Origin: Candidatus Woesearchaeota archaeon
Lineage (GTDB): Archaea > Nanobdellota > Nanobdellia > Woesearchaeales > JAFGLG01
Assembly (NCBI GenBank): GCA_016928155.1
Contig: JAFGLG010000017.1
Span: 62,001 to 126,000, forward strand
Reading direction: 5' to 3'
DNA: 64,000 nucleotides
In this document: positions 7,621 to 25,472 of the stretch, in pieces
Layout: the number at the start of each line of letters is the position of its first letter
Numbering within the stretch: position 1 is the first letter of the stretch
Notes under the pieces: generated by a model
Told to the model about the DNA's origin: nothing
The model's database searches: none
Seen by the model: only the letters and a program-made list of their open reading frames with translations
Translations under genes and position numbers: made by a program

Positions 7621-7644
7621 TTTATTTCTTGCTGCATCATTATT

Positions 7645-8644: not shown

Positions 8645-9577
8645 TCAAGGCAGTATCCTGAATCTCGTGTTTATCATGCCCCACTCTATGAATAGCAGCA
8701 ATAAGGACAGGAATAGCAGGGGCACCTGCAGTTTTATTGGTATGTTCTGTATGTTGAATGACGCTATCTCCATGAATGCTGCTGCCAGGTCTTCTTTGCT
8801 CTCTGCCCTGAAGTATTTGCCGCCTGTCTCAGATGAGATCTTCTTCAGCAATGGCTCATCCAGCATGCTTATTATGTCTATCCCTGCGAATTTTCCTCCC
8901 TGCTCTGTGCCTATCCCTATCGTGTGTACTGCCACATTCTTCCTCCTGGCGAATTCTATGCCGGTGTCTGGGTGCGTTCCGACATTGCTCTGCCCGTCTG
9001 TGAGCAGCACTATCGCCTTGGCATTGTCTGCCCCTTCAAGGAGGTTTGCAGATGTTATTATCGCTTCTCCGAGGTCTGTGCCTCCGCTCGGGCTTATCTC
9101 CATGCCGCGTATCCCGCTGTTGACATTGTTTTTGAGGATTGTCATGTCTGACTCTATTGATGCTGTGCCTGCGAAGCTGACAAGCCCTATATCCGTGTAT
9201 GCACCGATGCTGTCGACAAATATCTGCGCTGTCTCTTTGGCTGCCTCGAACCTGCTCGGGTGGAAATCGTCTGCTATCATGCTTCCTGACGCATCCAGCG
9301 CTATGACATAGGAGAAGTCGCTGACTTTGCCTTCATACCAGAGGACTGCTCCTGCTATGGAGAATATCAGGAAGAAGAGTATGGATAGCCTGAATGCGAG
9401 GAGAGTGTAGTTCTTTGTTATGACTTTCTTGCCTGTCACTCTCTCGAGCGCCTTGTAGTTCGCGAATTTCAGCGCCCTTAGCTGTGTGAATCTGAGGGTC
9501 AGGAAATGGGTGGCTATGAGCAGTGGGATGCTGAGTAGGAACCACAGGTATACGGGATGTGTGAATGTTATCTCCAT
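8645..9577 (-). CDS. VWA-domain membrane protein (BatA-like)
   Basis: 310 residues. Membrane segments lie near 10-27 and 60-80, then a von Willebrand A domain with an intact MIDAS (D95-x-S97-x-S99, later T and D residues), and a last membrane segment near the C-terminus. This is the BatA/BatB topology of the Bacteroides aerotolerance and MoxR-associated families. It is the last gene of the seven-gene operon and overlaps the DUF58 gene by 10 bp. It probably contacts secreted or membrane clients in a metal-dependent way; the client is inferred to be one of the giant surface proteins upstream. Confidence 0.85.
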   Translation of the reverse strand: MEITFTHPVYLWFLLSIPLLIATHFLTLRFTQLRALKFANYKALERVTGKKVITKNYTLLAFRLSILFFLIFSIAGAVLWYEGKVSDFSYVIALDASGSMIADDFHPSRFEAAKETAQIFVDSIGAYTDIGLVSFAGTASIESDMTILKNNVNSGIRGMEISPSGGTDLGEAIITSANLLEGADNAKAIVLLTDGQSNVGTHPDTGIEFARRKNVAVHTIGIGTEQGGKFAGIDIISMLDEPLLKKISSETGGKYFRAESKEDLAAAFMEIASFNIQNIPIKLQVPLLFLSLLLLFIEWGMINTRFRILP

Positions 9578-10464
9578 CTTGCCTGCCTCTCAATGAAGAA
9601 TCTCCTTATCTTCTGGTTGAACGGCTCGTGAGTCTCGAGCACGAGAAGGTCTCCCTTGGATTTTGATATCACACTCTTTACATGCGCGAGGTAGCTCTCG
9701 CTGTCTGTATGATATCTGCTCCTGACCTGGCTTGTGTCTATGAGCATCTGCTGTCCTGTGTTTATGTCTGAGACAATTATCTCTCCTTTCCCCGGAAGCT
9801 CGTAGTCTATCCTGTCGCGTATCATTATGCATATCAGGTCGAATTTCTGTGATAGGAGTTGCATTGCTTCTTCCCAGCTCTTTGACAGGCTCAGGAAGTC
9901 AGAGATGAGTATCAGCATGCTTCCCTGTGGCAGTGCTCTCATTATGAATTTTATTGGATCATCGAAATTGTTCCTGCCTCCGTATAAGTAAGGGTTTGAT
10001 ATATCTTTTGAGAGCAGGAACAGCTGCTGGTTCCCCCTCTTTGGCATCTTGAATGCCTTGACTGTGTCGCTGAACATGATGTATCCTACATTGTTCTGGG
10101 ATTCCAGGCTTGCGAATGCTATGTTCGCTGCGACCTCTGCTGCATATTCACACTTCAGCTTCTCTGCTGTGCCTGTTATCATGCTGTCGCTCACATCTAT
10201 CACGAAGAACACATTCAGGTTCCTCCCTTCCATATACTCTTTTATCAGTGTCTCGCCTGCTCTCAGGCTGGCCTTCCAGTCTATCTTTGAGGCGTCATCC
10301 GCCGGCGTGTATACCCTGTAGTCAGCGAACTCGAGGCCTATGCCTTTGAAGTAGCTCCTGAACTCGCCTTGTATCCCTCCTGCACCGCGGGTTGTCTGTT
10401 TTGTGACAATCTCAAGCTTTTTCAGCAGCGGCTTCAGGTTTATGTTGAGGCTTCTTTCAGTCAT
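9568..10464 (-). CDS. DUF58 protein with VWA-like domain
   Basis: 298 residues with the DUF58 signature region (GLEFADYRVYTPADD, then IDWKASLR, residues 44-68) and a VWA-like core with MIDAS D90-x-S92-x-S94. DUF58 proteins nearly always accompany MoxR ATPases. The ATG overlaps the MoxR stop by 4 bp (ATGA), so the products should be made in matched amounts. It has no clear signal peptide or membrane segment, so it is probably cytoplasmic or membrane-associated. Confidence 0.92.
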   Translation of the reverse strand: MTERSLNINLKPLLKKLEIVTKQTTRGAGGIQGEFRSYFKGIGLEFADYRVYTPADDASKIDWKASLRAGETLIKEYMEGRNLNVFFVIDVSDSMITGTAEKLKCEYAAEVAANIAFASLESQNNVGYIMFSDTVKAFKMPKRGNQQLFLLSKDISNPYLYGGRNNFDDPIKFIMRALPQGSMLILISDFLSLSKSWEEAMQLLSQKFDLICIMIRDRIDYELPGKGEIIVSDINTGQQMLIDTSQVRSRYHTDSESYLAHVKSVISKSKGDLLVLETHEPFNQKIRRFFIERQARWR

Positions 10465-11501
10465 GGTATCGGCACTTTCTCCAGTATCTCATCTATCACA
10501 CTGTCTGAATTTATCCCTTCGCTCTGTCCTTCATAGTTGAGCAGTATCCTGTGTCTGAGCACATCATGCGCTATGGTCTTGACATCATTGGGGGTCACAT
10601 AGTTCCTGTTGTTCATCAGCGCCTCTGCCTTGGCTGCAATGAAGAGACCGATAGATGCCCTGGGAGAGCAACCCCATTCTATGTACTTGCCCATCTTCAG
10701 ATGGTAATTTTTCGGGAATCTTGTTGCATCTACAAGGCTGACAAGATATTGCCTGACCTTGTCATCCATGAATATCTTGTGGACATCTGACTGCATCGCC
10801 AGGAGCTTCTCTTTTGTGAGGATTATTTTCATCTCGGGCTTCTCCAGTCCTTCCAGGGTCATGTTCTTCTCGAGTATCTCCTTTTCCTGGTTTATGTCGG
10901 GGTACATTATGTTCAGCTTGAACAGGAACCTGTCGACCTGTGCCTCCGGGAGGGGATATGTCCCGAGAGATTCTATGGGGTTCTGCGTCGCAAGTACGAA
11001 GAATGGCCTGTCGATGTTGTATGTCTCCTTTCCGATTGTTGCCTGTTTCTCCTGCATGCACTCAAGGAGTGCGGACTGGGCTTTGGGCGGTGCCCTGTTT
11101 ATCTCGTCTGCGAGCACGAAGTTGCTGAAGATCGGACCCTTGACGACATAGAATCCTTTCTTCTCGTCATAAGCCGTGATTCCTGTGATGTCTGTAGGCA
11201 GCAGGTCCGCTGTGAACTGGATCCTCTTGAAGCTGCACCCTGTTACGCTAGCAAGGGTCTTGACAAGGAGTGTCTTGGCTATCCCGGGCACTCCCTCAAG
11301 AAGTACGTTCCCGCTGGCGATCAGCGCCCTGAAAAGGCTGTTCACGACATGATCCTGGCCCACCACTGCTTTTGATATCTCCTCTCTTGCTTTCTGCAGG
11401 TCTTCATTGTATAACTGGCATTTCCCGTTGAACTCTGATTTCTTCTCCCCAGTATTTATTGTCTTGGCTTTTTGCATTATCTGTTTCAGCATTTTGATCA
11501 C
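10461..11501 (-). CDS. MoxR-family AAA+ ATPase
   Basis: 346 residues. Walker A is GVPGIAKT (70-77), Walker B VLADEINR (D132, E133), followed by the ATQNPIE sensor and the TYPLPEAQVDRF block typical of MoxR. MoxR ATPases act as chaperones that activate or assemble protein complexes with VWA partners; examples are methanol dehydrogenase maturation and the RavA-ViaA pair. It sits 8 bp after the helical 246-residue gene and overlaps DUF58 by 4 bp. A few residues before the conserved core (MIKMLKQ) may belong to a later start. Confidence 0.95.
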   Translation of the reverse strand: MIKMLKQIMQKAKTINTGEKKSEFNGKCQLYNEDLQKAREEISKAVVGQDHVVNSLFRALIASGNVLLEGVPGIAKTLLVKTLASVTGCSFKRIQFTADLLPTDITGITAYDEKKGFYVVKGPIFSNFVLADEINRAPPKAQSALLECMQEKQATIGKETYNIDRPFFVLATQNPIESLGTYPLPEAQVDRFLFKLNIMYPDINQEKEILEKNMTLEGLEKPEMKIILTKEKLLAMQSDVHKIFMDDKVRQYLVSLVDATRFPKNYHLKMGKYIEWGCSPRASIGLFIAAKAEALMNNRNYVTPNDVKTIAHDVLRHRILLNYEGQSEGINSDSVIDEILEKVPIP

Positions 11502-11509
11502 CTGTTTGG

Positions 11510-12250
11510 TTATATCCTGATTTTTGCGGCTTTTGACGCCATCTGTCTTATCCTTCCGGACTCTTTCTTCAGCTTTATAACATCATTGTGATTCTCCTCT
11601 ACGAATAAGGATTTTATTCTCTTGATCACTGGTTTTACTGGCTTCCGGGCTTCTTGCTTCTCGGACTTTGTCCTCTCAGTCTCCGGATGCTGTGGCTCTG
11701 GCTCGACTTTTTTCTCTATTGTCTTCTCTGGCCTGATTGCTTTCGGATTCTCAGGCTCGATGGGCATGCTTAGCTTCTCATGGTATCTCTTCATCTCTGT
11801 TTCCTTCTCTCTGGCCTTATCTTCCTGTCTCTCGAGTTCTTTTTTCTCTGCTGTATGGGACGAGCCTGCTGATGTGAGCTTCTCTATTATCCTCTCGAAT
11901 TCTTTTACTAGGTCCTGCAGCTCTTCCTTGGTCACGGATCCCCCGCTGTATCTTTTCTGTGTGAGCGCTCCGGAGAATTCTGTCACGCTCCTGTAGAATA
12001 CCTCGCCCATCCCCTTTGATTTTTTCTGGACAATGCCGGGTATCTCTTCTATTGTGTATTCATGCGGCAGAGCATAGTATTCAGAGAAGAATCTCTTGAC
12101 TATCTGATTGAGTTCTTCGAGCATGTTCTGCGTGTGCAGGTGCTCTGCCTTGTCTATCATTATCTCGCCGAGTATTTTCCTTTTCGCCTGCTTCTGCTGC
12201 TTCTGACGATTCTGACGATTCTGACGATTTTTTGGAGGGGCTTTTTTCAT
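11510..12250 (-). CDS. Helical protein of the MoxR operon, DUF4129-like
   Basis: 246 residues, no signal peptide, probably cytoplasmic. Residues ~30-130 are helical and follow the order seen in DUF4129 domains that accompany MoxR-DUF58: a YTIEE turn, a TEFSGALTQKRYSGG segment, then an EELQDL helix. The rest is a charged K/E/P-rich linker and a basic C-terminal helix. The same helical pattern occurs in the cytoplasmic tail of the 1993-residue protein. The start overlaps the upstream gene by 4 bp (ATGA). The N-terminus encodes NRQ three times from a 9-bp DNA repeat at 12201-12227; a second in-frame ATG at 12160 would exclude it. The family assignment is my inference. Confidence 0.7.
   Translation of the reverse strand: MKKAPPKNRQNRQNRQKQQKQAKRKILGEIMIDKAEHLHTQNMLEELNQIVKRFFSEYYALPHEYTIEEIPGIVQKKSKGMGEVFYRSVTEFSGALTQKRYSGGSVTKEELQDLVKEFERIIEKLTSAGSSHTAEKKELERQEDKAREKETEMKRYHEKLSMPIEPENPKAIRPEKTIEKKVEPEPQHPETERTKSEKQEARKPVKPVIKRIKSLFVEENHNDVIKLKKESGRIRQMASKAAKIRI
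12201..12227 (-). repeat. Three 9-bp tandem repeats (TTCTGACGA)
   Basis: Three exact copies of TTCTGACGA on the plus strand encode an Asn-Arg-Gln triplet three times near the N-terminus of the helical MoxR-operon protein. Such repeats can change copy number by slippage without breaking the frame. Confidence 0.7.
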
Positions 12251-15200
12251 TTTTTCCTGCCTCCGTATCTCCTGTAGATGAAATATCCGGCAATTGATGT
12301 GAGCCCTACCAGCATGAATCCGAACATGAACAGGAGTGAGTTTCCTATAGCATTGAGTATCCTGGGGTTCTGGACCTCTTTCTCAGGTGGCTCAAGCAGG
12401 TAGTTGCACACTGTACGCACCTGTTCGAGCATCTTGTCTGCCTCTTCATAGTTCCCAAGATCTATCTGTTCCTCGGCTCGTTCAAGGACTTCGTTGAGTT
12501 CCAGGCATTTGGGATTCCTTTGGAGCAGGTCTCTTGTGAAAGCGACTTTTGTATTGACAGCTGTCCTGTTGCCTTCTGCCTTCTCGAGGGAGTTTATGTA
12601 TATCTTTGCACTGTCTGAGAATGCGGGGCTGGTCACATTTGCCCTTATGATTATCTCATATGTCCCGAAGATCTTGTATGACTCTATGTACATCTCGGTA
12701 TATTCCTGCTCGTTGACTCCTATCTCGTCGAAGTATGGCTCGCTGAAATATGCTTTTATATCGGGATTCTCTGCCTCAAATGTCAGGTTCACTCCCCTGA
12801 ATGTCTGGTTGCCGTTGTTCTTGATGTATATTGGTGTCATGAATGTGTTGTTCTTGTACATGGTTATGTTGCCCGGATAAAGTATTTTTATTGGCGTGAA
12901 TACCCGCACCTCTTCCCTCTTGAGGCTTGTCCTTGTCACTGTCCTTGTGATTGTCTCTGTCTGGGTCTGGGTCTCATCCTCTACTGGATTGTAGATTATT
13001 GTTATGTTGTTGCTCCATGCGGTCGCATTCCCGTCTGATGCTGTGAAATAAACTGTCTCGACACCGGACCAGTCTGCCTCTGGGAAGATTGAGACCTTGT
13101 TGTTTGAGGTGTTTATCAGTATCTCAAGGTGGACTGCTCCTGACACATTGTAGTGCAGCTCTGTGTTCCCGTCTGCATCATAGAAGAAGTCATCGAGGTC
13201 TATCCATGGGTCGACTATCACATCCTCGTCTCTCGTGAGGTTGCTTATGACGTAATTGACTGTTGCATTGGCTAGTGATGGGCTCTCTCCTGATTCATTT
13301 GATCTGAACAGTAACCGGTATTGGAAGAACTGGTAGCTTGGGCTGTCTATTGCATTGCTTGTCGCATTTCCCGGGTCAGACCAGTCTGTGAAATCTGTTG
13401 TCTCGTATTGTGAGCTCCTTGTCTGGAATGTTATGTTTGTGCCGTTCGGCTCTGAGGATCCCAGATCCATGATCGAGAACCTGAAGTTTCCGTCATCCTC
13501 TACCATGTCGATGATCTCTGATGTGTAGAGCCCGCTCAGGTATGGCGGAGGTGGGTCTGCAAGTTTCATTCTGCCTGATTGGAATGTGAGGTTGATGAAT
13601 GTCCCGTTCTGGAATGATCCTTCTGATAGGTATTCCTTTTTTCCGAATACAGGTGCCCTGTTCACATTCAATACCTCTATATGCCACCAGAAGCTTGTGT
13701 TCTCACCCCACCTGTCAGTTATTGTCACATTGAGTGTATGGTTCCCTTGGGCAAAGTACCCTGGATAGTAATCATACTCTGTGCCATTTATCTGCTTGCT
13801 CTTTCTATCCATTGTCCAGTTATAGCTCAAGGAATCATTGTATGGCAGGTCTGGATCAGTCGCATTTATTATGAAAGTCCAGGTGTCTGTCTCCAGTATT
13901 GTGAGGTTTGTCTCATTTGTCCAGTATGTTCCGTTTGTCGCATTCCACCATAATATCTCAGGAGGATCATTGTAGAACAGGACTTCGAATCTTAATGTAG
14001 TGGTATTTGTTGAATTCCCGTCTGTTACAGATATGTTGACTGTGTGGTTGCCCACTTGTGTTATGTTTGGCGTGAAATTTATCAGCGCCTGCCTGAGCGT
14101 GAGGTTGTATATGCTGATGTTGAACAGGTTTGTCTCATTTATGAAAACATTTGAGAAGTTCAGCGTATCATTCTCCTCGTCTGTCGCATTGAGCACCAGG
14201 AAGAAATTGAACCCTTCATACACTGAATCCCATTCAGGATATGAATCGATTGGCGGGTCGAAATAGGGGGTATCATTGACTGCACTGATGTTCAAGGTGA
14301 AGTTTGTTGAGTTCCAGAGCTCTCCATCTGTCACATTGAGATAGATTGAATAGAGGCCGACTAGCTCCCATCCAGGCGTGAACGATATCAGTCCTGTTGT
14401 CTCGTTTATGGTGAATATGCTTGCATTGCTGTAATAATACAGGTCGTCATTGTCGAAATCATCCGCATCTATGTCATATTCGCACAGGCTGTCCTCTGAG
14501 CAGTTCATCATGCCCGGCACATTTGTGAAATAAGGGGCGTGGTTGTCTGTCACATTAACCAGCACAATCACCTCATCATTGAAGCGCAGGGAATCATTGA
14601 CGCTTATCCTGACATATTCCCAGCCAGTATGGTCTGGTGTGAAGTTGATGAGGCCGGTCGCATATCCTGTGCCTGCCCCGGTTATGTCTGTTATGTTGAA
14701 GTATGTGCTGTTCTCGTAGAATGTTTCTATGTCTAGGTCTGTATCAGAAGCGTTTATGCGGATCGTGTATGTCTTGTTCACTCTTGTTATTATGGGATCA
14801 GGTATCGGCCCCAGCACAGGCGGATCATTCTGGTCTGTTATGTTAAGCAGATATGTGCTGCTGTTCACTGCTCCGTGCGAATCATTGACATATATTCTGA
14901 TTGTATTGAGCCCCACATGGATCTGGCTGGGTGTGAAGCTGAATGTCGCATAGGCGAATGAAGAGTTGACATTGACCTGATTGACGCTGAAATAGCTGAA
15001 GTTGCTGTAGAATGTCATGCTGTCATTGTCGAGGTCTGTCGCATTGACATAGAGGGAATAAAGCGATTTTTCAGGTACTATTTCATCTGGTATCGGGTAA
15101 GGTCTCAGTATTGGTATATTGTTGGCCATTATCTCTAGGTTGAAGCTGATTGTGCTGTTCACTTTGTTGTCATCGACCCATATCCTGACAGTATAATTGC

Positions 15201-16404
15201 CGACTTGGCCGGCTGTGGGTGTGAAGTTTATCAGCCCGCTGGCCGATATGTTGAACAGCCCTGTATGGTTATTGTAGTAGTTCAGCGCAGTATCATCGAC
15301 ATCATAGGCATCTATCTTCAGCAGGAATGGCGCTCCCACAAATGCTGTCTGGTTCGGCACAGGATAAATGTATGGTGCATCATTGACTGGGGTCACGTTC
15401 AATGTCACATTATTGCTTTCTGTTGAATTCATGTAGTCTGATGCGTTGAAAGTCAGTATTATGACACCGAAGAAGTCCTGGTCTGGATAGAATGATACTG
15501 TATGGTTCCATGCACCTGTTTCTGTGATGTTTACCTGCATGTCTGACCCGGCATAGTTTGCTATGTAAGTCAATGGATAATTGTCTGTGTCATTGTCCTT
15601 GAAATAGTCATCAAGGTTGAACACATCTGTCAGGTTTGTGTCTTCTGTCCAGTTGAAGTAGTCAGGGGTTATGTTCTGGTCAAGCCATGGGGGCCTGTTC
15701 ATGTCTGTGACATTGACTCTCCATGTGTAATTGTCAGAAGCGCCATGGCTATCTGTCACCTTGACTGTGATGTTGTGCACCATTGATGCATTGGGTCCTG
15801 CAGAGAGGTAATCTGGTATGTAGGTTGCGTTCAGGCTTGTCGAGTTCAGCACTGTCTCGTTTATCACGCCATCAATATACCATGTGTAGTTGAGTGTGTC
15901 CCCTTCATAGGTAAGCATATCGACATCAATAACAGTGATGTTCATGTATAATGGCTCAAGCTCGTCTATCTCTGTCGTGAAATTGTCTGGGTCTGACTCA
16001 TTGTATGGGCTTACTGAGGTGATGTTTGGTGGATCGTTGATGTTTGTTATGTTGAAACCAATTGTGGCAACTTCACGATCAAATCCTGTCTTATCGCTCA
16101 CATTTATCGCAATTATTGTCACAGCTTTATACCATATTATCACATCATCATTGTTAGGTGTGAAATTCAAGACCCCTGTATCCTCATTTATGGTTAGTGA
16201 AGAGAAAGTGTTATTTTGTATAGCATAAGACACATTGGACTCATCTATGGATACGTTTACGTCATAGCTCCAGGAGACACCTTGTGTGAGATAAAAGACG
16301 GTTCCATGGATAGGGGGACTGAATGTGAATGTGGCTGCGATTACGAAGGGTGCGACTATCACAAGTAGCATCGCATACAGTATCCACCTCTTTTCGGCTA
16401 TCAT
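12247..16404 (-). CDS. Giant surface protein with cadherin/Ig-like repeats and C-terminal anchor
   Basis: 1385 residues. N-terminal signal (WILYAMLLVIVAPFVIAA), then about eight to nine cadherin/putative-Ig-like repeats, each introduced by an NDPP / NRPP / NDAPY-type turn and containing inFTP and DDYF..D motifs. A T-rich stretch (about 1135-1150), a CARDB/NEW3-like beta domain, a short helical hairpin with two Cys, and a membrane segment near 1355-1378 ending in RRYGGRKK follow. There are very many N-x-S/T sequons, consistent with AglB-type glycosylation. Second large gene of the operon, overlapping both neighbours by 4 bp. A surface adhesion or S-layer-associated role is inferred. Confidence 0.85.
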   Translation of the reverse strand: MIAEKRWILYAMLLVIVAPFVIAATFTFSPPIHGTVFYLTQGVSWSYDVNVSIDESNVSYAIQNNTFSSLTINEDTGVLNFTPNNDDVIIWYKAVTIIAINVSDKTGFDREVATIGFNITNINDPPNITSVSPYNESDPDNFTTEIDELEPLYMNITVIDVDMLTYEGDTLNYTWYIDGVINETVLNSTSLNATYIPDYLSAGPNASMVHNITVKVTDSHGASDNYTWRVNVTDMNRPPWLDQNITPDYFNWTEDTNLTDVFNLDDYFKDNDTDNYPLTYIANYAGSDMQVNITETGAWNHTVSFYPDQDFFGVIILTFNASDYMNSTESNNVTLNVTPVNDAPYIYPVPNQTAFVGAPFLLKIDAYDVDDTALNYYNNHTGLFNISASGLINFTPTAGQVGNYTVRIWVDDNKVNSTISFNLEIMANNIPILRPYPIPDEIVPEKSLYSLYVNATDLDNDSMTFYSNFSYFSVNQVNVNSSFAYATFSFTPSQIHVGLNTIRIYVNDSHGAVNSSTYLLNITDQNDPPVLGPIPDPIITRVNKTYTIRINASDTDLDIETFYENSTYFNITDITGAGTGYATGLINFTPDHTGWEYVRISVNDSLRFNDEVIVLVNVTDNHAPYFTNVPGMMNCSEDSLCEYDIDADDFDNDDLYYYSNASIFTINETTGLISFTPGWELVGLYSIYLNVTDGELWNSTNFTLNISAVNDTPYFDPPIDSYPEWDSVYEGFNFFLVLNATDEENDTLNFSNVFINETNLFNISIYNLTLRQALINFTPNITQVGNHTVNISVTDGNSTNTTTLRFEVLFYNDPPEILWWNATNGTYWTNETNLTILETDTWTFIINATDPDLPYNDSLSYNWTMDRKSKQINGTEYDYYPGYFAQGNHTLNVTITDRWGENTSFWWHIEVLNVNRAPVFGKKEYLSEGSFQNGTFINLTFQSGRMKLADPPPPYLSGLYTSEIIDMVEDDGNFRFSIMDLGSSEPNGTNITFQTRSSQYETTDFTDWSDPGNATSNAIDSPSYQFFQYRLLFRSNESGESPSLANATVNYVISNLTRDEDVIVDPWIDLDDFFYDADGNTELHYNVSGAVHLEILINTSNNKVSIFPEADWSGVETVYFTASDGNATAWSNNITIIYNPVEDETQTQTETITRTVTRTSLKREEVRVFTPIKILYPGNITMYKNNTFMTPIYIKNNGNQTFRGVNLTFEAENPDIKAYFSEPYFDEIGVNEQEYTEMYIESYKIFGTYEIIIRANVTSPAFSDSAKIYINSLEKAEGNRTAVNTKVAFTRDLLQRNPKCLELNEVLERAEEQIDLGNYEEADKMLEQVRTVCNYLLEPPEKEVQNPRILNAIGNSLLFMFGFMLVGLTSIAGYFIYRRYGGRKK

Positions 16405-19400
16405 TCTGGCTGGCCCTCCTCCAGTCTTGTTATCTTCTCATGTGCTGACTTCAGGGATTCATAGGATGCTGTCCTTTCATCCTTGTTCATCTTCTTGTAT
16501 ATGTCGTTTGCCGCTTCGTATGATCTCCTGAGATTCTCCAGCTCTGATACCCCTATCTTCTTTGTCTTGATTGCTGTGTTTATCTTCCTGATCCTGATGT
16601 TGAAAGCCTGTATCCCCTTTGAGACTTTCCTGCGTCTTTCAATCTCTCTCAGTTTTTTAAATATTTCTTCTTTATCCTTGAGCGGGGTCTCATATGCCTC
16701 ATTCTGCTCCTTGGCAGGCACATCCACTGAACTTGTCACTATCTTCCTTATGTTCTCAAAGAATTCCTTGAGCTCCCCGCCATCTGTCTGCTTCTTTCCA
16801 TAGACCTTGTCATTGAGTTTCAGGATATAATGGGTTATCAGGTCTTTTAGGAGTATGTTGTCTATGTTCCTCCTAGCATCGTCTATCATCTCTTCAAGGG
16901 TCGATGAATATTTGGTGTCGAATACCTCTTTCATGAAAACTCTCAGGATATAGGCGAGGGTCTCCAGCTTGTCGACGGCACTCTTCTCTTCCAGCTCTGT
17001 CACCCTGACTGCCTGGAGTATGATGAATCCGAAGTCATCTTTCCTCTTTGCTGCCGCTGGGAACCATCTCAGTATATTATAGAGCAGGTCAGGCAGGTAC
17101 TTGCCGTAGTATTTGTAGAAGAGGTATCCGGCAAGCAGGCACAGCGCCAGTATGATCAGGAGCCACCATAATATGACCCACATTATCATCATGGGCTGCT
17201 CATAAAGTCTCTTTGGCGGGCATGGGCCTCCCACATCTATCCCTGTCTCGCCCTGGTTCTGTATGCCGTCATGGCAAGTCGGACATGGAGGGCATGGCCC
17301 ACCGCAGTCTGTCCTTTCCTCTCCTTGGTTCTTGATTCCATCCCTGCATAATGGGCATGGAGGGCATGGCCCTCCGCAATCGATTCCCTGTTCTGCGCCA
17401 TTATGGATCCCGTCATTGCAAGTCGGGCATGGAGAGCATGGCCCACCGCAGTCTATGCCTGTCTCGCCATGGTTCTGTATGCCGTCATGGCATGTCGGCT
17501 CATAGATGCATTCTCTTGTGAGGTTTGGCTGGAGTATTGGACTTTCGCAGTTGTTTATGTCAGTGCAGACCCTTATCTGTATTCCGCTTGGCAGGCATTC
17601 TGACCATGCATTGCAGGTCCAGTTGACAGTGCACCACTTGGAAGGCCTGTCCGGGCTTCCCCCTCCGCCTCCGCCTCCCCCGCCTCCTGGACTGGGGCGT
17701 GGATCTGGCATATCCATTACTTTCAGCATCACCTGGTTCGAGTAGACGAACTCTCCGTAGGGGTCTTCTGCCCTGAATGTGACCAGCCTGATGCCGAACC
17801 AGTTCGGTTCGGGTGTGAAAGTCAGCACATGGTATTGGTTCATTGATATTGTTATCTTGTCTATGTAGCTCCATGTGTATACCAGCGGGTCCCCGTCAGG
17901 ATCTGCGAAATAGTCATCTAGGTCGAGCCCTGTCAGCGATGTGTCTTCTTTCCATATCTGGTCTGGTATCGGCTGTATAAGATAAGGTGGGTTATTGAAA
18001 ATTGATCCGAGCTCGCAGCTGTCCAGGCACCTGTAGACCCCTGAATCATTGAGGTTGCTGCACATGAATATGGACTGCCTTGCTGACGTGGAATCCATAT
18101 CAGCATCGTCTGTTACTGTCACATCGAATCTGATAACCTCGCTGGTGATGTTTGTGTTGAGTATGTCGCCGATAGGCACTTCTCCGGTGCATGATACCAT
18201 CTTATTGTCTCCGGTTAGGTTATTCATGGGCACAGTCTCGCTCTTTATGTAGGTCTCATTGAGATGATAGAATTTCACGAGACATCCGGTGCTTGTTGTG
18301 AACCCGTTTGAGCTGTTGAAATTTACCCCGATGCCAAGCAGCTGTTCAGATGAGAAGTGCATCCTGTCCGGGTAGTTTGTGTATGCATAGTAAGGGCTTG
18401 ACTGGTACGGCCCGCGGACGACTGTTATGTTGTATGATCCGCTCGCAGAGTTGCCCACACCGTCATACACGACATAGCTTATGTTCCATGTCCCGTCAGG
18501 GAAAGGGTATTCCATTGAGCAGTCATCGACGATATAGACCTCTCCGGAGATGTTTATCTCGCAGTAGTCTATTCCTGTATTGTAGGTCCGGTTGTCCGTC
18601 ACATTGATCACGATTTCCTGGCTTGCTCCGTAAAGGACTGTGCCTGGAGGAGGTTCTACTGATGTGACAAGCGGCGGCTCGTTTTCTGTGACATAGATCG
18701 TTGAGTCCCAATAGGCGACATTGCCCTCCACAGAGACTGTTATCCTTAGCTCATGCAGCCCTATCTCGGTTGCGTTCACTGCTGCAGATAGGTCAAGATC
18801 CCCTTCGAACCCGGAGGGGTTTTCTAGCTGGATTGTGTTGTTGTTGACAAGCTTGATGAATCCTGTTGTCGTTCCATACATGTAGGTGTTGTTCTCGTTC
18901 GGCTCGCTGTTTATCTGGCTTATCGGGTAGTGGACATGCCCTATCAGGATGAGGACAGTCCCGTTGAATTCTATGTCCATGAACTCAGCTGTGAGGTTAT
19001 TCCCCAGAGTGACGACCTGGTCATGGGTCACATTGACTCCGACTATTGTGTCAGTTACATTTGTGGGGGTTATGCCAAGGCACACGAGTGCCATGTTGCA
19101 TTCTGTATCTCCGCAGTCTGATAGCCCGTCGCCGTCATTGTCAAGGCCGTCATTGCAGAACTCGGCCGGCCCGTAATAGCATTCTGCGCAGTCCATGTCA
19201 TCGCAGTCTGTGAATCCGTCATGGTCATTGTCAAGGCCGTCTGAACAGTCTGTCTCTGTGACACCGCACAGCCTTCCGTCAGGACCCACCTGACCATAGC
19301 AGTCTGCATCATCGCAGTCTGCTGCGCCGTCTGCATCATTGTCCGATGAGTCTGCGCATGAGTCGATTGATATGTTCTCTTGATACGGGCATGGATAGCA

Positions 19401-22382
19401 GACACCGCCTGTGCCATAGCATGTCAGGTCATAGCAGTCAGTGTCCCCGTCACGATCATTGTCGAAATCATCGTCGCATGTCAGCTCAGTCCCATATTCG
19501 CACAATGCACCGCTGCTCAGGTCGCCGACTCTTGTGTCGCAGTCTATGTCTCCGCAGTCTATCCCTCCGAACTGGGGACTTGCCGGATGGTCATAATCCA
19601 GGTCATTGTCATTGTTGTCATAGCATATGACTTCGTAGAGAGCACAAAGGTAGTCTGATGTCCTGTGCCATCTGTCGCAGTCCCTTTCATAATATGACCC
19701 GCTCACATAGCAGTCATATGGGCCGTCTGCGTCGTTGTCGAAGCGGTCATCGCATGTCAGTTCTGTACCGAATTCGCATATCGCATCCAGTGTCAGGTTG
19801 CCGACGAGCGTATGGCAGTCGTCATCCAGGCAGTCTGTCCATGCAATCATGCTCGGTGTGCTGTCCTGATAGCTTGTGCTGCTGTCCCATACCCCGAAAT
19901 ATCCGTAGTCATAGTCATTGTTTAGGAGGTCATAGCAGATCTCATCTATCAGGGGACATGACTCGTTGTCCATGAAGCAGTCATTGTCGAAGCAGTCTAT
20001 GTATCCGTCGCCGTCATTGTCGAATCCGTCGTCGCATGTCAGCTCAGTCCCGTATTCGCATCTAATGCCTTCCAGTATCAGCGCTCCGTCGCAGCCGATG
20101 TCGAGGCAGTCAAGCACAGGTATCTCGGCGCATTCGCCTGTTGTCGATAGAAGGCTGTTGAGGTCATTGTCTATGCCATCATTGCAGTATTCGGCATATC
20201 CGCTTGAATTTATGTAGTCGCTTTCATTGGCAGGTGCTGAATCTGTCACATTGATTGTCTGGTACAGCCTCACAGTACCGTACCCGTCGTCCATGCTCCT
20301 CACGAACTCTATGTCATACCCGCCTCCAGGCGCTTCTGCAGGCATGCCGAACCTTAGCATCTCCCATAAGTGTCCTGTGAATCTGTCATTGTCCGGATTG
20401 CCGTCAGGAGTGTATGATTTTGATGTTAATGACATTGTTGTATACAGCTTGGTTGGCAGCTGTCTTGTCTCGGTTGTGCTGTCTGATATCCCGAAATCGG
20501 GCGGTAGGTCATTTAGTGCCACCTGCACAAGCTTGCTGTCCACATCGCATTGCTTGAACTTTGCTGTATAATCTGACCCTGGCTTGACTGCTTTTATGTA
20601 ATAGACTGTCGTAGCTCCCATGTCGAACCAGCAGACATTGTTCATGCATGGGTCGTCGAGCCATATTGCGCTGTCTATGCTCCTGCTGTTCCTGCATTCG
20701 TATCTCACTCCTGCGCAGTCAGGATCATCGCAGTCGATGCGCAGGTCTCCGTCATTGTCCACACCATCATCGCATTCATCCTCTACGAGTGCACTAGCCT
20801 GCTGTTTTATCGCAAAGTTGACGTCGCTGACCCATGAGCAGTTCAGCTCGTCAAAGTACCATCCGGGATTGTTTGTGTAGCAGGATACTGCATGATCGAC
20901 ATCATCCCACAGCCATGTGTTGCTCCTGTGGATGTGGAAGAACATTGTGTTGTCCATTGTCAGCTGGCTGTTGTTATATGCTGTCGTCGTCACATTGTAC
21001 TGCCCGTTCTGCACCGTGTTTGGCAGTGAGAGGCCATAGGTCACATTGTAGTATCTTCCATTGCTGTAAGTCGTGACATCTGCCGGGTTGAATGATGGGT
21101 CTATATCTGAGAAACCAGAGGTCACATTCAGTGTGCTCTCCTCGAGCTTCACGCTTATTATGGCCTCAGAGTTCTCCTTGTAGAACACCTTGTCCCTGTT
21201 CGGCGGCTTGACCCTGAATGTTGTGTTTGCGTAGCCTGTCAGGTTGGCGTGGGTGCAGTATGCATCCAATGTGTGGTTCCCCTCGATGTATCTCCAATGC
21301 TGTATGTATTTGTAGAGTGATATCTGCGGTATGTACAGATGTATCAGGCTTTGCTTGGGCATCCAATCCCAGTGTAAAAATCCTCCTGTTACAGCCATCA
21401 GGGTGAAGCTTGTGGGGTTGTAGTCTGTCCTGTAAGAGCAGTTTGCTATGATGGGGAATGATATGTCGCCATAGCCTGTTGCATATGTTGTCACATTGAA
21501 ATATGGTGAGTTGTCCTGCGTCGGGTCCTCTATGGATATGTTGACCTTGAGCGATGCGTTCTCTATTGTGGTATAGTTCCCCTCGAATCCGGCTGTGTCT
21601 TCAAATAGGATTGAGCCGTTCGTGAAATCTGTTATCAGACAATCGCTGCAGAACTCGCCGTTTTTCAGTATTATCGGCAATATGGCGCTTATGTTATGCA
21701 GTGTGATTTGGGGGTATGACAGTATGCACATGGTGTTGAAGCCATAAGCTCTGATGAAGTTTTTTTCGATGATCAGGTTTGCATCTATGTTCATCTCATC
21801 AAGATCCACTTTTGATGGGCCGGAGTAATTGATGTCCCCGTGCTCGTTGCCGATTGTTATGTCTGACAACTGTATCCATGCTGTAAAATTAGAGAGGTTA
21901 GTCGTGTAGTTGTTCTTGTAATTCTCCCAGATAGGCTCTATATCCACATTGTTTATTGAGAACAGTCCTCCGAAAACCCCGCTGTCGGCGCATTCTCCCT
22001 TGGCTGCTGCCCTCACAAAATAACCGCACATGGAATCCGGCACTGTTGTCGTATCCCATGTCACATTGAAATAATCATCTCCATCAAAGTAATCGGTCCC
22101 GAGGGAACCTATGGATGCACCTCTGTAGTCAAAGCTGACTTCAGAGACATTTAAGTTGTAGTCAGTGTAGTTTGCATACACTGATACTGTTATCACCCCT
22201 GAATATACTCCTGCTTGAGGATGGAGGTTGGTGAGTGTGGGGACTCCACCTATACATATCCTGACTTTCCCGGCAGCTGTGACCTGCCCGGAGATCTGGT
22301 TGTGCAGTGAGTAATTAGAATATCCGATAGTGATGATGTACATGATTACAAGCACAGCTATCACATTATTGGATATCTTCAT
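16401..22382 (-). CDS. Giant modular surface protein with acidic Cys/DND repeats, TSP1-like domain and cytoplasmic helical tail
   Basis: 1993 residues, the largest gene here. Order: N-terminal membrane/signal segment; beta-rich domains with many sequons (to ~530); about ten Cys-flanked repeats of type CxDGxDNDxDG..DC (about 536-1095), whose DxDxDG loops resemble calcium-binding type III repeats; further Ig-like and cadherin-like domains; a glycine run near 1565; a thrombospondin-1-like WTCNAWSEC domain (~1575-1625); four CxDGI.N.GE..IDCGGPC.PC repeats (~1628-1720), the last degenerate; a membrane segment (~1730-1757); and a 235-residue helical cytoplasmic tail resembling DUF4129. AGGAGG lies 4 nt before the ATG, inside the RHH gene. 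The tail faces the cytoplasm where MoxR/DUF58 act. Confidence 0.88.
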   Translation of the reverse strand: MKISNNVIAVLVIMYIITIGYSNYSLHNQISGQVTAAGKVRICIGGVPTLTNLHPQAGVYSGVITVSVYANYTDYNLNVSEVSFDYRGASIGSLGTDYFDGDDYFNVTWDTTTVPDSMCGYFVRAAAKGECADSGVFGGLFSINNVDIEPIWENYKNNYTTNLSNFTAWIQLSDITIGNEHGDINYSGPSKVDLDEMNIDANLIIEKNFIRAYGFNTMCILSYPQITLHNISAILPIILKNGEFCSDCLITDFTNGSILFEDTAGFEGNYTTIENASLKVNISIEDPTQDNSPYFNVTTYATGYGDISFPIIANCSYRTDYNPTSFTLMAVTGGFLHWDWMPKQSLIHLYIPQISLYKYIQHWRYIEGNHTLDAYCTHANLTGYANTTFRVKPPNRDKVFYKENSEAIISVKLEESTLNVTSGFSDIDPSFNPADVTTYSNGRYYNVTYGLSLPNTVQNGQYNVTTTAYNNSQLTMDNTMFFHIHRSNTWLWDDVDHAVSCYTNNPGWYFDELNCSWVSDVNFAIKQQASALVEDECDDGVDNDGDLRIDCDDPDCAGVRYECRNSRSIDSAIWLDDPCMNNVCWFDMGATTVYYIKAVKPGSDYTAKFKQCDVDSKLVQVALNDLPPDFGISDSTTETRQLPTKLYTTMSLTSKSYTPDGNPDNDRFTGHLWEMLRFGMPAEAPGGGYDIEFVRSMDDGYGTVRLYQTINVTDSAPANESDYINSSGYAEYCNDGIDNDLNSLLSTTGECAEIPVLDCLDIGCDGALILEGIRCEYGTELTCDDGFDNDGDGYIDCFDNDCFMDNESCPLIDEICYDLLNNDYDYGYFGVWDSSTSYQDSTPSMIAWTDCLDDDCHTLVGNLTLDAICEFGTELTCDDRFDNDADGPYDCYVSGSYYERDCDRWHRTSDYLCALYEVICYDNNDNDLDYDHPASPQFGGIDCGDIDCDTRVGDLSSGALCEYGTELTCDDDFDNDRDGDTDCYDLTCYGTGGVCYPCPYQENISIDSCADSSDNDADGAADCDDADCYGQVGPDGRLCGVTETDCSDGLDNDHDGFTDCDDMDCAECYYGPAEFCNDGLDNDGDGLSDCGDTECNMALVCLGITPTNVTDTIVGVNVTHDQVVTLGNNLTAEFMDIEFNGTVLILIGHVHYPISQINSEPNENNTYMYGTTTGFIKLVNNNTIQLENPSGFEGDLDLSAAVNATEIGLHELRITVSVEGNVAYWDSTIYVTENEPPLVTSVEPPPGTVLYGASQEIVINVTDNRTYNTGIDYCEINISGEVYIVDDCSMEYPFPDGTWNISYVVYDGVGNSASGSYNITVVRGPYQSSPYYAYTNYPDRMHFSSEQLLGIGVNFNSSNGFTTSTGCLVKFYHLNETYIKSETVPMNNLTGDNKMVSCTGEVPIGDILNTNITSEVIRFDVTVTDDADMDSTSARQSIFMCSNLNDSGVYRCLDSCELGSIFNNPPYLIQPIPDQIWKEDTSLTGLDLDDYFADPDGDPLVYTWSYIDKITISMNQYHVLTFTPEPNWFGIRLVTFRAEDPYGEFVYSNQVMLKVMDMPDPRPSPGGGGGGGGGGSPDRPSKWCTVNWTCNAWSECLPSGIQIRVCTDINNCESPILQPNLTRECIYEPTCHDGIQNHGETGIDCGGPCSPCPTCNDGIHNGAEQGIDCGGPCPPCPLCRDGIKNQGEERTDCGGPCPPCPTCHDGIQNQGETGIDVGGPCPPKRLYEQPMMIMWVILWWLLIILALCLLAGYLFYKYYGKYLPDLLYNILRWFPAAAKRKDDFGFIILQAVRVTELEEKSAVDKLETLAYILRVFMKEVFDTKYSSTLEEMIDDARRNIDNILLKDLITHYILKLNDKVYGKKQTDGGELKEFFENIRKIVTSSVDVPAKEQNEAYETPLKDKEEIFKKLREIERRRKVSKGIQAFNIRIRKINTAIKTKKIGVSELENLRRSYEAANDIYKKMNKDERTASYESLKSAHEKITRLEEGQPE

Positions 22383-22533
22383 CTTTCCTCCTTATTTTCT
22401 TGTATTTGACCAGAAGATCCCTGAGCGCTTCTCTTGTTATCTCAGATTGGTTTGAGAACATGCCTTCGTCTATCAGTTCCTGTATCTTTTTCTTCAGCTC
22501 TTTCCCGATTCTTATGTGGACCAGATCAGACAT
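22366..22533 (-). CDS. Small ribbon-helix-helix (CopG/Arc-type) regulator
   Basis: A 55-residue gene easily missed because of its length. Reading from ATG 22533: MSDLVHIRIG strand, KELKKKIQELIDEG helix, FSNQSEITREALRDLL turn and second helix, basic tail ending DEDIQ. This is the RHH fold: the N-terminal strand pairs in a dimer and enters the DNA major groove. The end overlaps the 1993-residue gene by 17 bp and carries its AGGAGG ribosome-binding site, so the regulator is the first gene of the operon. GAAGGAT precedes its own ATG. Two identical palindromes lie 32-66 bp upstream, suggesting autorepression. Confidence 0.87.
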   Translation of the reverse strand: MSDLVHIRIGKELKKKIQELIDEGMFSNQSEITREALRDLLVKYKKIRRKDEDIQ

Positions 22534-22564: not shown

Positions 22565-22599
22565 TATCATTTTGATATACAAATAATATCATTTTGATA
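22565..22599. promoter_or_regulatory. Tandem 13-bp palindromic operator, probable RHH binding site
   Basis: TATCATTTTGATA occurs twice without mismatch, at 22565-22577 and 22587-22599. Each copy is a TATCA / TGATA inverted repeat, and centres are 22 bp apart, about two helical turns, the spacing at which RHH dimers bind side by side. The sites lie between the TATA box and the RHH start codon, covering the expected transcription start. Confidence 0.75.
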
Positions 22600-22720: not shown

Positions 22721-23173
22721 TTACTTGCTTCGCCAGAATGTCATCTTGGCATACCCATGATAATACCCTATCTCTTTGTTGGGTATTCCAATCAGCTGTA
22801 TTGTCTTCGCCTCATTGGGTTCGAGATGAGGCATTGATGGAATGGCTTCTACCATACCGCTGATGTTCCCAACCACCTTCATCTTGACATCGAGCGGGAA
22901 ATTATAGGGGTTGATTAGGACGACTTCCCTTATCAGTGTGCTGCCTCCTTTTTGTGCTGAGCCGAAATGCAGGAAATCATCCCCGAGGTTTATGCCAACG
23001 CCTTTCTCCACCACTTTGATGTCCATCTCTATGGTCCTTGTCTCGACATGCATGTATGAGAAATAGGCTATGCTTGTCAAGGACACTGTCAATATGATTA
23101 TGGCAATGAGAGCTATGATGAGTTGTTTTGTTGAGAATCCTGATGTATGTCCGAATTTATGTTTCTTACGCAT
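22721..23173 (-). CDS. Single-pass membrane protein, unknown function
   Basis: 150 residues when started at ATG 23173 (MRKKHKFGH). A longer frame runs back to 23332, but it would overlap the upstream gene by 92 bp and bypass a good TATA box at 23191-23202. Basic N-terminus, membrane segment (LIIALIAIIILTVSLTSIAYF), then an extracytoplasmic beta domain with NPYNFPLD and LEPNE motifs like an NEW3/CARDB or pili-subunit fold. It follows the surface gene cluster. I do not recognise a named family. Confidence 0.7.
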   Translation of the reverse strand: MRKKHKFGHTSGFSTKQLIIALIAIIILTVSLTSIAYFSYMHVETRTIEMDIKVVEKGVGINLGDDFLHFGSAQKGGSTLIREVVLINPYNFPLDVKMKVVGNISGMVEAIPSMPHLEPNEAKTIQLIGIPNKEIGYYHGYAKMTFWRSK

Positions 23174-23190
23174 ATTGGCTGATTTTGAGG

Positions 23191-23202
23191 TTATATTTAT
23201 AT
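23191..23202 (-). promoter_or_regulatory. TATA box for the 150-residue membrane protein
   Basis: Reads ATATAAATATAA on the minus strand, 18-29 bp before ATG 23173. This supports that start and a leaderless transcript. Confidence 0.5.
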
Positions 23203-23240
23203 TTTTTATTATTTTTTTATTTGGAGTGTATGATTTTATT

Positions 23241-24515
23241 TCAGGGATGCTTTGGGGCCTCGAGCTTCTTTGCCTTTTTCTTTTTGTCTGGCTTGGGGGC
23301 ATCACCTTCGAGTTCATCGAAATCAGGATCATTCCCCCCTGCCTTATGACTGTATCTTCTCATCTCTTTCCTGTCCTGTACCCTGAGTATCAGGAATATC
23401 AGCATGATTAGGGTTAGTATCAGCAGCAGGAGGTTTGTTATGTTGAAGTACTGCAGGAACATCGGCCTATGGAGGGTTTTCTCAAGAACTGCGAGAAGGC
23501 TGTCCTTCTCTGTTATCCTTTCCCCATAATATGCTCTCAGCTGTATCGGGTATGCGCTTGCATTAACCCCGTTTGCATCGAGGTATGTCGACAGGTTTCC
23601 TTTGCCGAACGGCCCGAGCGTTATCGGAGATGTCTTTGCCACCACACCATTGAAGGTCACTTCCCCCCAGACATCTTTGAGCTCTCCGTTCCAGAGGCTC
23701 TCTACCTCAAATTCGAATTTGTTTATCATGTCTGAGTATATCTCTTTGGTGTGGTTGTTTATCTTGAGCTGTCTTGTGCCGACAAGATAGGAATCATTGA
23801 GATTTTCTGTTATTTCGTTGTAATGGACATCTGCCTCGACTGAATATTTTCCTGGGGGATAACCCCCCATCGGGAACCTCACATCCCAATTATGGCTTTG
23901 GAAGGAATTGAGAGAGACTTTTGATGTGTCTGCGGTATGGACAAGCCCGCCTGATGAGTTGTAGAACCTCAGCTCTGCATGCGCATCCTCTATCATTATC
24001 TTTCCTTTGTTGGATATTGATACTGTTGTTATCTCAGTCTCATTCTCGCCGATGTCCCTGGCATTGAGTCTGGTCTCTGCCAGCAGGCCAGGATGCAATA
24101 CATGGAGAGAAAAGAGGAAAGCCAGTGATCCCTTCACTGTCAGAGCTCCTTCGATAGTGTTGCCCTCTGTCACTGACATTTTTATCACATGCTGCCCGAA
24201 GTGCTCTGAGTCTTCGAAGAAATTGACTTTTACCTTGAAGGTGAATGTCTCCATGGGTTTGAGTTCAGGTATCGAGGCCGGCTCTGCTGAGAAATATTTA
24301 TTGAGGTCTGTCTTCCCGCCGCCCCTGTCCTGAAAGGTTATTGAATAGCTTTGGGGTATTTTTTGGTTATTTATGATGGTGTATTCATACTCATGGCTTT
24401 TGCCGAGCTCGACATTTAGGTTCCTGTTCAGCAGATCAGAAGTCCCTCTTATGCCGTTTGCTGCTGGGATTATGAGGACTAATATTAAGATTAGGAAAAA
24501 TATGTTTTTTGCCAT
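23241..24515 (-). CDS. Membrane-anchored beta-domain protein (CARDB/NEW3-like)
   Basis: 424 residues. Signal peptide (FFLILILVLIIPAANG), two or three beta-sandwich domains with sequons, a membrane segment near 370-390, and a charged K/P-rich cytoplasmic tail. The C-terminal half resembles the protein at 60687-61991: both have an SLWNxxLxDVxG block, a PGKYSVE/PGTYTIK strand, a late membrane helix and a K/P-rich tail. It lies 27 bp after the S-layer-like gene 24543-25232, mirroring the LamG protein and its partner at the right end. Surface scaffold or transport role unknown. Confidence 0.75.
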   Translation of the reverse strand: MAKNIFFLILILVLIIPAANGIRGTSDLLNRNLNVELGKSHEYEYTIINNQKIPQSYSITFQDRGGGKTDLNKYFSAEPASIPELKPMETFTFKVKVNFFEDSEHFGQHVIKMSVTEGNTIEGALTVKGSLAFLFSLHVLHPGLLAETRLNARDIGENETEITTVSISNKGKIMIEDAHAELRFYNSSGGLVHTADTSKVSLNSFQSHNWDVRFPMGGYPPGKYSVEADVHYNEITENLNDSYLVGTRQLKINNHTKEIYSDMINKFEFEVESLWNGELKDVWGEVTFNGVVAKTSPITLGPFGKGNLSTYLDANGVNASAYPIQLRAYYGERITEKDSLLAVLEKTLHRPMFLQYFNITNLLLLILTLIMLIFLILRVQDRKEMRRYSHKAGGNDPDFDELEGDAPKPDKKKKAKKLEAPKHP

Positions 24516-24542
24516 TTTAAAAAGTAAGAAAAAAAAGATAAT

Positions 24543-25232
24543 TTATTTCTTGACTGCCTCAAAGATCACATTGACAGAAGCTTCGTTACCTAATGTGGAT
24601 GCACCGAGAGGCACCAGGACTTTTGCAGATACATTTGCCCATTTTTGAGGGGTGCTTCCAATTGGAAGGGCATTACACCAGCTTACATTCTCCACATTCT
24701 TTGGGAATTCCTGGTAAGTGGTAATACCACTGGCACAGTTATGTCCGTCAAGCTTGAACTCCAATGCAGCTTGTGCTGTACAGAATGTATAATTGCCTGA
24801 TGTTGCATCTTGGCATACAAGTTCTGCAGCTGTTCCTGTCACATTGATGCTGATGTTGACTTCAACGTTACCATCATTCCAGAGTGCAAAGTGATCTCCA
24901 CTCAGGCATCCCGGCCCATTGAATCCGTTTGCATCAGTTGTGACTGCATCAACAACCTGTGTTCCGGTTGCTGAGTCGCAGGTGATATTATTAATCACCC
25001 TAGAGAAATTAGAGTTGACGCCAAAATCTATAAGCAGGTCAGTCGCATTGATTGACAGAACTTGTGTGATGGTTATGTTGACCTTGCCTGTGTAATTGGT
25101 CTCGCCTGTTGCGAATCCTGCCAGCATCCCTAACTCTGAGATCCCTCCCATGAGCCAGGCAAAGCTTGCTAGAGAGACCACGATTGCTGCTACTAATAGA
25201 TATACTAATGTTTTGTTTGAAACTTCACCCAT
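24543..25232 (-). CDS. Pilin/S-layer-like surface protein with N-terminal membrane anchor
   Basis: 229 residues: short MGEVSNKT leader, membrane segment, then a beta domain with many sequons, six Cys and a DGNVEVNISI strand. That strand and the C-terminal VPLG...GNEASVNVIF block recur at the C-terminus of the LamG protein (RNEGNVHINLSI and VPGG...GNKSSILVF). GGAGGTTA overlaps the stop codon of the preceding gene, so translation is coupled. Probably an abundant cell-surface protein, judging by the strong ribosome-binding site; this is inference. Confidence 0.72.
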   Translation of the reverse strand: MGEVSNKTLVYLLVAAIVVSLASFAWLMGGISELGMLAGFATGETNYTGKVNITITQVLSINATDLLIDFGVNSNFSRVINNITCDSATGTQVVDAVTTDANGFNGPGCLSGDHFALWNDGNVEVNISINVTGTAAELVCQDATSGNYTFCTAQAALEFKLDGHNCASGITTYQEFPKNVENVSWCNALPIGSTPQKWANVSAKVLVPLGASTLGNEASVNVIFEAVKK

Positions 25233-25235
25233 TTT

Positions 25236-25472
25236 TTAACCTCCTTTTGCCATATTAGTAATTTCCAATGCCACTCTGCCGGTTGTCTGCACAGGTGGTA
25301 GATTGCTGCCGGTTATCCCTAATTTCACTTGGCCGACAGGTGTTGTTGTTCCTGCTGGGAACTCTGTCGCTGTCTCTGTAATCCTGCTCCACATTGCCCA
25401 TGTGGTGAACACTGAAAGACATATTGTCAAAATCAAGAGAACAAGCACTGTCTTCTTTGAGATGTCACCCAT
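25236..25472 (-). CDS. Small pilin-like membrane protein
   Basis: 78 residues with N-terminus MGDISKKTVLVLLILTICL, close to that of the next gene, and a short extracytoplasmic tail rich in T and P. The leader (AAGGAGGTTAAAAAATGGGTGA) is nearly identical to that of the following gene, so the pair arose by duplication or shares a conserved start context. First gene of the surface cluster, with a TATA box about 90 bp upstream and a hairpin in the leader. Confidence 0.7.
   Translation of the reverse strand: MGDISKKTVLVLLILTICLSVFTTWAMWSRITETATEFPAGTTTPVGQVKLGITGSNLPPVQTTGRVALEITNMAKGG

Follow-up and report, generated by a model that had tools for sequence, protein, structure and literature searches.

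We found that one clade of archaeal MoxR ATPases is paired near-exclusively with one family of surface proteins. The pairing is exemplified by a locus in a Candidatus Woesearchaeota genome (1.48 Mb, 99.7% complete), on a 64,000-nucleotide stretch of contig JAFGLG010000017.1 that we refer to as the window. The general reading that we favor, and consider probable, is that this archaeal locus encodes a MoxR machine of the Bat type that serves a single surface assembly. Its conserved linkage, and a domain on the inner end of one surface protein that appears to be part of the machine, suggest an ATP-driven, membrane-spanning system with which these small, uncultured archaea would build or operate their surface coat. 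The targets of Bat-type MoxR-DUF58-VWA modules are poorly known, as is the way in which giant surface proteins are displayed and controlled in partner-dependent archaea. The locus ties these two questions together: a single MoxR clade goes with a single surface-protein family, and the domain that both sides have in common provides a direct place to look for contact between machine and surface.

A MoxR module beside two giant surface proteins

The core of the locus consists of seven open reading frames, all on the minus strand. Their coordinates, common direction and overlaps, as given in a preliminary description of this DNA, were all borne out by the list of open reading frames, their translations and a check of the junctions. 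From the ribbon-helix-helix (RHH) gene to the VWA gene, neighboring genes overlap by 17, 4 and 4 bp at the first three junctions, are separated by 8 bp at the fourth, and overlap by 4 and 10 bp at the last two. The RHH gene (22366..22533) encodes a CopG-type regulator of 55 aa (RHH_1). It is followed by genes for a 1993-aa surface protein (16401..22382), a 1385-aa surface protein (12247..16404) and a soluble helical protein of 246 aa (HEL, 11510..12250). The module itself comprises a MoxR AAA+ ATPase of 346 aa with a GTG start (10461..11501; AAA_3 and AAA_lid_2), a VWA-like DUF58 protein of 298 aa with no predicted transmembrane helix (TM) (9568..10464; PF01882, E 7e-41), and a BatA-like VWA membrane protein of 310 aa with three TMs (8645..9577; BatA N-terminus, PF07584, and VWA). 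The RHH, MoxR, DUF58 and VWA labels were confirmed by Pfam matches above cut-off. A further label, DUF4129-like, had to be dropped: PF13559 had no match in the window proteins, the scanned homologs or 60 relatives, and this model does match in 6 of 14 control genomes. No tRNA or Rfam features were found in the window. Directly downstream, 55 bp past the VWA gene, a gene for a Nop5-type protein (Pfam Nop) and, by eye, a fibrillarin-like gene run in the same direction (6964-8589); these look like an unrelated housekeeping pair.

The 1993-aa protein has an N-terminal anchor, a Cys-rich ectodomain with acidic DxDxDG-like loops and matches above cut-off to the NCBIfam “acidic double-disulfide repeat”, a TM near residue 1732, and ~240 cytoplasmic residues after it. 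This cytoplasmic tail (16404..17114, minus strand) is made up of a helical domain and a C-terminal helical hairpin region. Proteins of the 1993 type in relatives are far shorter (596-1072 aa), with linkage to MoxR still present. The 1385-aa protein is built of tandem-95/Big_9 cadherin-like repeats (NCBIfam “tandem-95 repeat”, above cut-off) and carries 97 N-x-S/T sequons before its C-terminal TM. Its C-terminus consists of an Ig-like and helical segment with a conserved Cys pair, the TM, and a short basic cytoplasmic tail; a profile of this region gave only chance-level matches to PDB sequences. Open frames of the 1385 type exceed 3000 aa in some genomes (G073, G106, G146, G259), and thus the length of this family varies widely.

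The MIDAS residues of the VWA protein (D95, S97, S99, T167 and D194) are conserved in at least 93% of 24 homologs, and its C-terminal tail, NT[RK]-P, is also conserved. The BatA_Lepto model aligned to this protein over nearly its full length, with a score below the model's cut-off. The loop between TM1 and TM2 was strongly basic in all 12 homologs checked, which, by the positive-inside rule, would place the VWA domain outside the cell and the NT[RK]-P tail inside. This orientation is supported, although less firmly than the domain assignments. For BB0173, a BatA-type protein of Borrelia, the VWA domain is periplasmic by experiment (PMC5700661).

The pairing is conserved in relatives

We searched 279 genomes of the phylum with profiles of the C-terminal region of the 1385-aa protein (A1) and of MoxR (A4). 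The 1385-type family was found in 78 of these genomes and a MoxR scoring within one group, clade A, in 82. Clade A MoxR was present in 75 of the 78 genomes with a 1385-type protein versus 7 of the 201 without one (Fisher p 1e-55, relatedness not corrected for). The two genes lie no more than 3.5 kb apart in 55 of the 75 genomes that have both, and 52 of these 55 have them on the same strand with the surface gene upstream. In a further 15 of the 75, the genes are found on different contigs of draft assemblies. One of the three genomes with a 1385-type protein and no clade A MoxR, G034, has a moxR that is split into two frames, and incomplete assembly is possible for the seven with clade A MoxR and no detected 1385-type gene. 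The clade A cut-off of 473.5 bits was chosen after the score distribution had been seen, and the rows of the MoxR profile come mostly from loci adjoining surface genes; clade A stands as one group on its support in the tree (100/97), which is independent of neighborhood.

Named genomes with this arrangement include Nanoarchaeota JAHIVG010000071.1 (L086) and Pacearchaeota JAGVWY010000022.1 (L106). The whole locus also matches on a contig labelled Methanosarcinales (L085, JAFCBX010000008.1), whose MoxR groups tightly with that of a Woesearchaeales genome; this contig is probably misbinned. The preliminary description had stated beforehand that its proposal would fall if the neighborhood was not conserved in relatives. 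Since strong conservation was found instead, there are good grounds for inferring a regulated MoxR system that is linked to surface proteins.

Within 60 genomes of the order, the MoxR proteins comprised clade A, with ~55-66% identity to that of the window, a class B near 50% identity, and distant ones. In the tree, clade A formed one supported clade, apart from class B and from the bacterial Bat MoxRs; the bacterial Bat clade was also supported, and class B lay apart. The nearest bacterial relatives of the window MoxR were those of Bat operons, with ~50-54% identity. The combination of MoxR, DUF58 and VWA is therefore a known Bat-type module, and the earlier view that the system is not recognizable among described ones does not stand.

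A coupling domain on both sides of the locus

At the level of profile comparison, the soluble helical protein and the cytoplasmic tail of the 1993-aa protein proved to be one domain (hhalign 99.2% probability, E 3.4e-19, 171 columns), which we call the coupling domain. It was compared with tails from bacterial Bat operons collected via a MoxR search, 29 from the BatD-like protein whose gene lies between those for DUF58 and BatA, and 19 from BatD. The profile set labelled D4381 represents the short BatD-like protein, in which Pfam finds a sub-threshold match to BatD and not DUF4381. Both archaeal profiles, that of the helical protein and that of the 1993-aa tail, aligned in register with the bacterial BatD-type tails (89-105 columns, 51-90% probability, E 1.5e-4 to 1.7e-6). 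The reverse comparisons gave probabilities of 32-88%, and those of two control profiles against the archaeal ones were at most 0.4%. Together these alignments support, if less strongly than the identity of the two archaeal domains, a remote relationship of the coupling domain to BatD-type tails.

No Pfam model matched the coupling domain in scans of the window proteins, their homologs and relatives, and the tail profile gave only chance-level matches to PDB sequences. An AlphaFold model of the 1993-aa tail (mean pLDDT 71.6) consists of a helical bundle followed by further helices. A Foldseek search with this model returned nothing at E <0.001. The best VIA-align result with the HEPN-domain protein 2hsb (Z 9.5, rmsd 3.5, 113 residues) has a Z that is common for unrelated helical bundles.

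The domain bears on the role of the surface proteins, both of which had been proposed as clients of the MoxR machine. Of the two, the 1385-aa protein alone is consistent with being purely a client. Because its tail domain is shared with the helical protein and appears related to BatD-type tails, the 1993-aa protein is more likely to be a subunit of the machine than a plain client. In a divergent locus (L030; G007:C23, ~9800-18288), a Cys-rich protein of 526 aa that has a coupling-type tail lies next to a surface protein whose length is at least 2303 aa and whose C-terminus is of the 1385 type; this is a much diverged version of the 1993/1385 pair.

Transcription units and a candidate operator

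The layout of the window fits the single operon that had been proposed, with the helical gene co-directional with moxR, as it also is in L025. However, in every one of the 38 relatives scored, the helical gene and moxR are divergently oriented. Co-transcription is thus not general, and a single transcript would be a local arrangement.

Two perfect copies of TATCAAAATGATA, spaced 22 bp apart, lie in the 187-bp gap 5′ of the RHH gene (22565..22599). These are the only copies of this 13-mer in the window, and the whole genome has three. The third perfect site (G000:C2:189579, L166) lies within a coding sequence. The search thus yielded no second promoter, and the idea of an RHH regulon elsewhere in the genome was set aside. 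The same 13-mer is present upstream of the RHH ortholog in L036, a divergent genome from a different family, and L036 is the only one among the relatives inspected in which the RHH gene adjoins the locus. RHH genes that regulate themselves typically carry such a palindromic site at their promoter. The duplicated palindrome is thus likely to be the RHH operator, and the earlier description of the system as regulated gains a candidate regulator in the RHH protein.

Surface genes upstream of the module

Four further surface-type genes lie 5′ of the RHH gene on the same, minus strand (22721-25472), with an order that is kept in relatives, and the conserved locus is longer than the seven genes first described. 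It begins with a gene for a small N-anchored protein of 78 aa (25236..25472), whose N-terminal module is the same as that of the next product, a 229-aa N-anchored secreted protein of family A5 with 11 N-x-S/T sequons (24543..25232). By eye, the N-terminal anchors of family A5 and the 1993-aa protein are alike. These genes are followed by one for a 424-aa protein of family A6 (23241..24515), with a signal peptide, an Ig-like region and a C-terminal TM, and one for an N-anchored Ig-like protein of family A7 (22721..23332), for which the alignment suggests a true start at ~23173 (~150 aa).

In relatives, genes of 200-230 aa, 400 aa and 140 aa precede those of the 1993 and 1385 types. This order is complete in L035, L039, L040 and L041 and partial in L029, L042, L043, L086 and L092; in L035, L039 and L043, a homolog of the 78-aa gene comes directly before the 200-230 aa gene. 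The A6 family lies on the same strand, 4-14 kb upstream of the conserved end of the 1385-type gene, in 32 genomes. It was found in 120 of the 279 genomes, and 62 of these have no 1385-type protein, which rules out that the upstream surface genes are exclusive to this system. A profile of the 424-aa family gave only chance-level matches to PDB sequences. A known pilin or fiber protein was considered for the 229-aa family and rejected, with no Pfam match and no PDB sequence match. Given these results and an AlphaFold model that was unusable (pLDDT 33), we do not call this family a pilin.

A second pair of surface genes is found on the minus strand at 60687-64000. In it, a paralog of the 424-aa family (60687-61991) adjoins a giant protein whose frame extends past the edge of the window and whose final domain resembles the 229-aa family, with LamG-like and Ig-like sequence by eye. 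No moxR adjoins this pair within the window.

Proposed mechanism and alternative explanations

We propose that the 1385-aa and 1993-aa proteins would be anchored side by side with their large ectodomains outside, and that the VWA protein would hold its MIDAS domain outside and its short tail inside. MoxR and DUF58 would be cytoplasmic, recruited by the coupling domain on the 1993-aa tail and on the soluble helical protein. Cycles of ATP use by MoxR could then act through DUF58, the coupling domain and the VWA protein to fold, assemble, switch or release the surface complex, and the RHH protein would probably bind the duplicated palindrome and control the gene set. All physical interactions in this scheme, the direction in which it acts and the part played by ATP are inferences, and we hold the details of order and direction with much less confidence than the general reading. 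A more specific and rather doubtful form of the mechanism is an archaeal analogue of inside-out adhesion control. There, an AAA+ ring would grip the inner domain of the giant protein and the VWA/MIDAS protein would switch or assemble the cadherin-like adhesins by which small, partner-dependent archaea attach to other cells.

The surface proteins may instead be receptors that sense contact, for example with a partner cell, with the 1993-aa tail signaling inward to MoxR and DUF58, which would act elsewhere. The layout of the 1993-aa protein, a large ectodomain, one TM and a cytoplasmic domain, is indeed receptor-like. The known cultivated DPANN archaea depend on contact with a host, for which giant surface proteins have been discussed as mediators (PMC10266531; PMC11291902). 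In addition, the FN3 surface protein of a bifidobacterial MoxR-DUF58 cluster binds host signals (PMC8430577). Nonetheless, no output domain or signaling enzyme was seen at the locus, the 1385-aa protein has only its short tail in the cytoplasm, and the characterized MoxR-VWA pairs are chaperones that use ATP to remodel or assemble bound partner complexes (PMC7159879), so that we consider a receptor unlikely. It is more unlikely still that the Bat-type set generally maintains the membrane or envelope and that the surface genes are other envelope genes travelling along. Such a role would agree with the split of the locus into two units by the divergent helical gene, and with work on Bat-type modules in other lineages, which has dealt with stress phenotypes and not with one surface protein (PMC3557215, PMC11834572). 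Yet the class B set, found in many relatives, is the one without these surface genes, co-occurrence in clade A is near-exclusive even across different contigs, and the coupling domain joins both sides of the locus.

Two other explanations fare worse against a dedicated surface-assembly machine. In one, the module would act as a chelatase-like or cofactor-inserting MoxR-VWA pair and supply the acidic double-disulfide repeats of the 1993-aa protein with a divalent metal, a role that would draw on the acidic DxDxDG-like loops and on the conserved metal site of the VWA domain. However, extracellular loops of the calcium type load spontaneously, the MoxR linkage persists with the far shorter 1993-type proteins of relatives, and the 1385-aa partner has no such repeats. 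Thus, even with cofactor insertion by NorQ/NorD as a precedent (PMC9976466), we regard metal loading as very improbable. A ternary MoxR-vWA conflict system directed against phages would explain why MoxR and VWA genes occur together and why the MoxR resembles the bpMoxR profile, but this similarity is higher still in the Bat MoxR of B. fragilis. PADLOC gave no match beyond generic AAA similarity, and neither a third component (VMAP, iSTAND, FtsH or beta-propeller) nor effectors such as those described for these systems (PMC7159879) were found at the locus. A defense system was therefore rejected, and we attach almost no probability to it.

Relationship to described systems

The Bat operon of Bacteroidota (e.g., B. 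fragilis, L150) consists of MoxR, DUF58, a short BatD-like protein, BatA, BatB, BatC, BatD and BatE. The archaeal locus shares with it MoxR, DUF58 and a BatA-type VWA protein in the same order, as well as a membrane protein with an ectodomain, a TM and a cytoplasmic tail, the tails being probably remotely related. Unlike the Bat operon, it has one VWA protein rather than BatA and BatB, and neither a BatD-domain ectodomain (no match to PF13584 in the scanned window proteins) nor TPR proteins of the BatC and BatE kind; no second VWA gene and no TPR gene were found at the locus. Conversely, it has a pair of giant surface proteins, a second, soluble version of the tail domain, an RHH regulator and four additional surface genes, all of which set it apart from Bat. 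As the BatD ectodomain, BatB, BatC and BatE are missing, we do not class the locus as a Bat operon; any likeness would at most be one of function.

In bifidobacteria and mycobacteria, MoxR-DUF58 modules are already known to lie next to surface or secreted proteins. The bifidobacterial PFNA cluster encodes Pkb2, an FN3 surface protein, MoxR, DUF58 and a transglutaminase (PMC8430577), and like our locus has a large, secreted, membrane-anchored adhesin of beta domains beside MoxR and DUF58. It differs in being bacterial, in its kinase and transglutaminase-like protein, in a core without a BatA-type VWA protein and in its surface family; Pfam and NCBIfam scans gave no Pkb2 kinase, FN3 or transglutaminase domain at the archaeal locus. 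The mycobacterial moxR1-DUF58-vWA operon adjoins ripAB, which encode secreted proteins (PMC12067865). Here too a module of MoxR, DUF58 and a membrane VWA protein lies beside secreted proteins, but these are cell-wall peptidases rather than anchored giants, and no shared tail domain has been described.

Among archaea, the predicted secretion system around arCOG01314 (Makarova, Galperin and Koonin 2015; PMC5898192) likewise brings a MoxR-type ATPase and VWA together in a single neighborhood with Ig-like proteins that are predicted to belong to the S-layer. It is, however, defined by DUF4350, which had no match in the scanned window proteins, has another VWA architecture, and has been described without DUF58 or a coupling-domain tail. 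No system like the present one appeared in the titles and abstracts of the papers that a literature search for DPANN archaea with MoxR returned. The new elements are the pairing in archaea, the presence of the tail domain on a giant surface protein, and a candidate operator.

Class B is a separate archaeal Bat-like system. It has MoxR, DUF58 and BatA-type VWA parts in common with our locus, but differs in its separate MoxR clade and in being without giant repeat proteins; at the thresholds applied, the genome of the window itself yielded no such set. Class B loci (L045-L049, L053, L054, L056-L059, L061-L063) have a largely conserved order and encode MoxR, DUF58, two BatA/VWA proteins of 580-850 aa (DUF7408 or GATase-like), and membrane proteins of 150-200 aa and 250-290 aa. 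The shortest archaeal version of the module is found in operons that we call clade A′ (L050, L051, L055, L093, L104), in which MoxR, DUF58 and VWA genes are followed by one for a tail-bearing protein. This protein consists of an ectodomain, a TM and a cytoplasmic tail of the BatD/coupling-domain family, and a Gln-rich stretch was seen in it in L050, L051 and L055.
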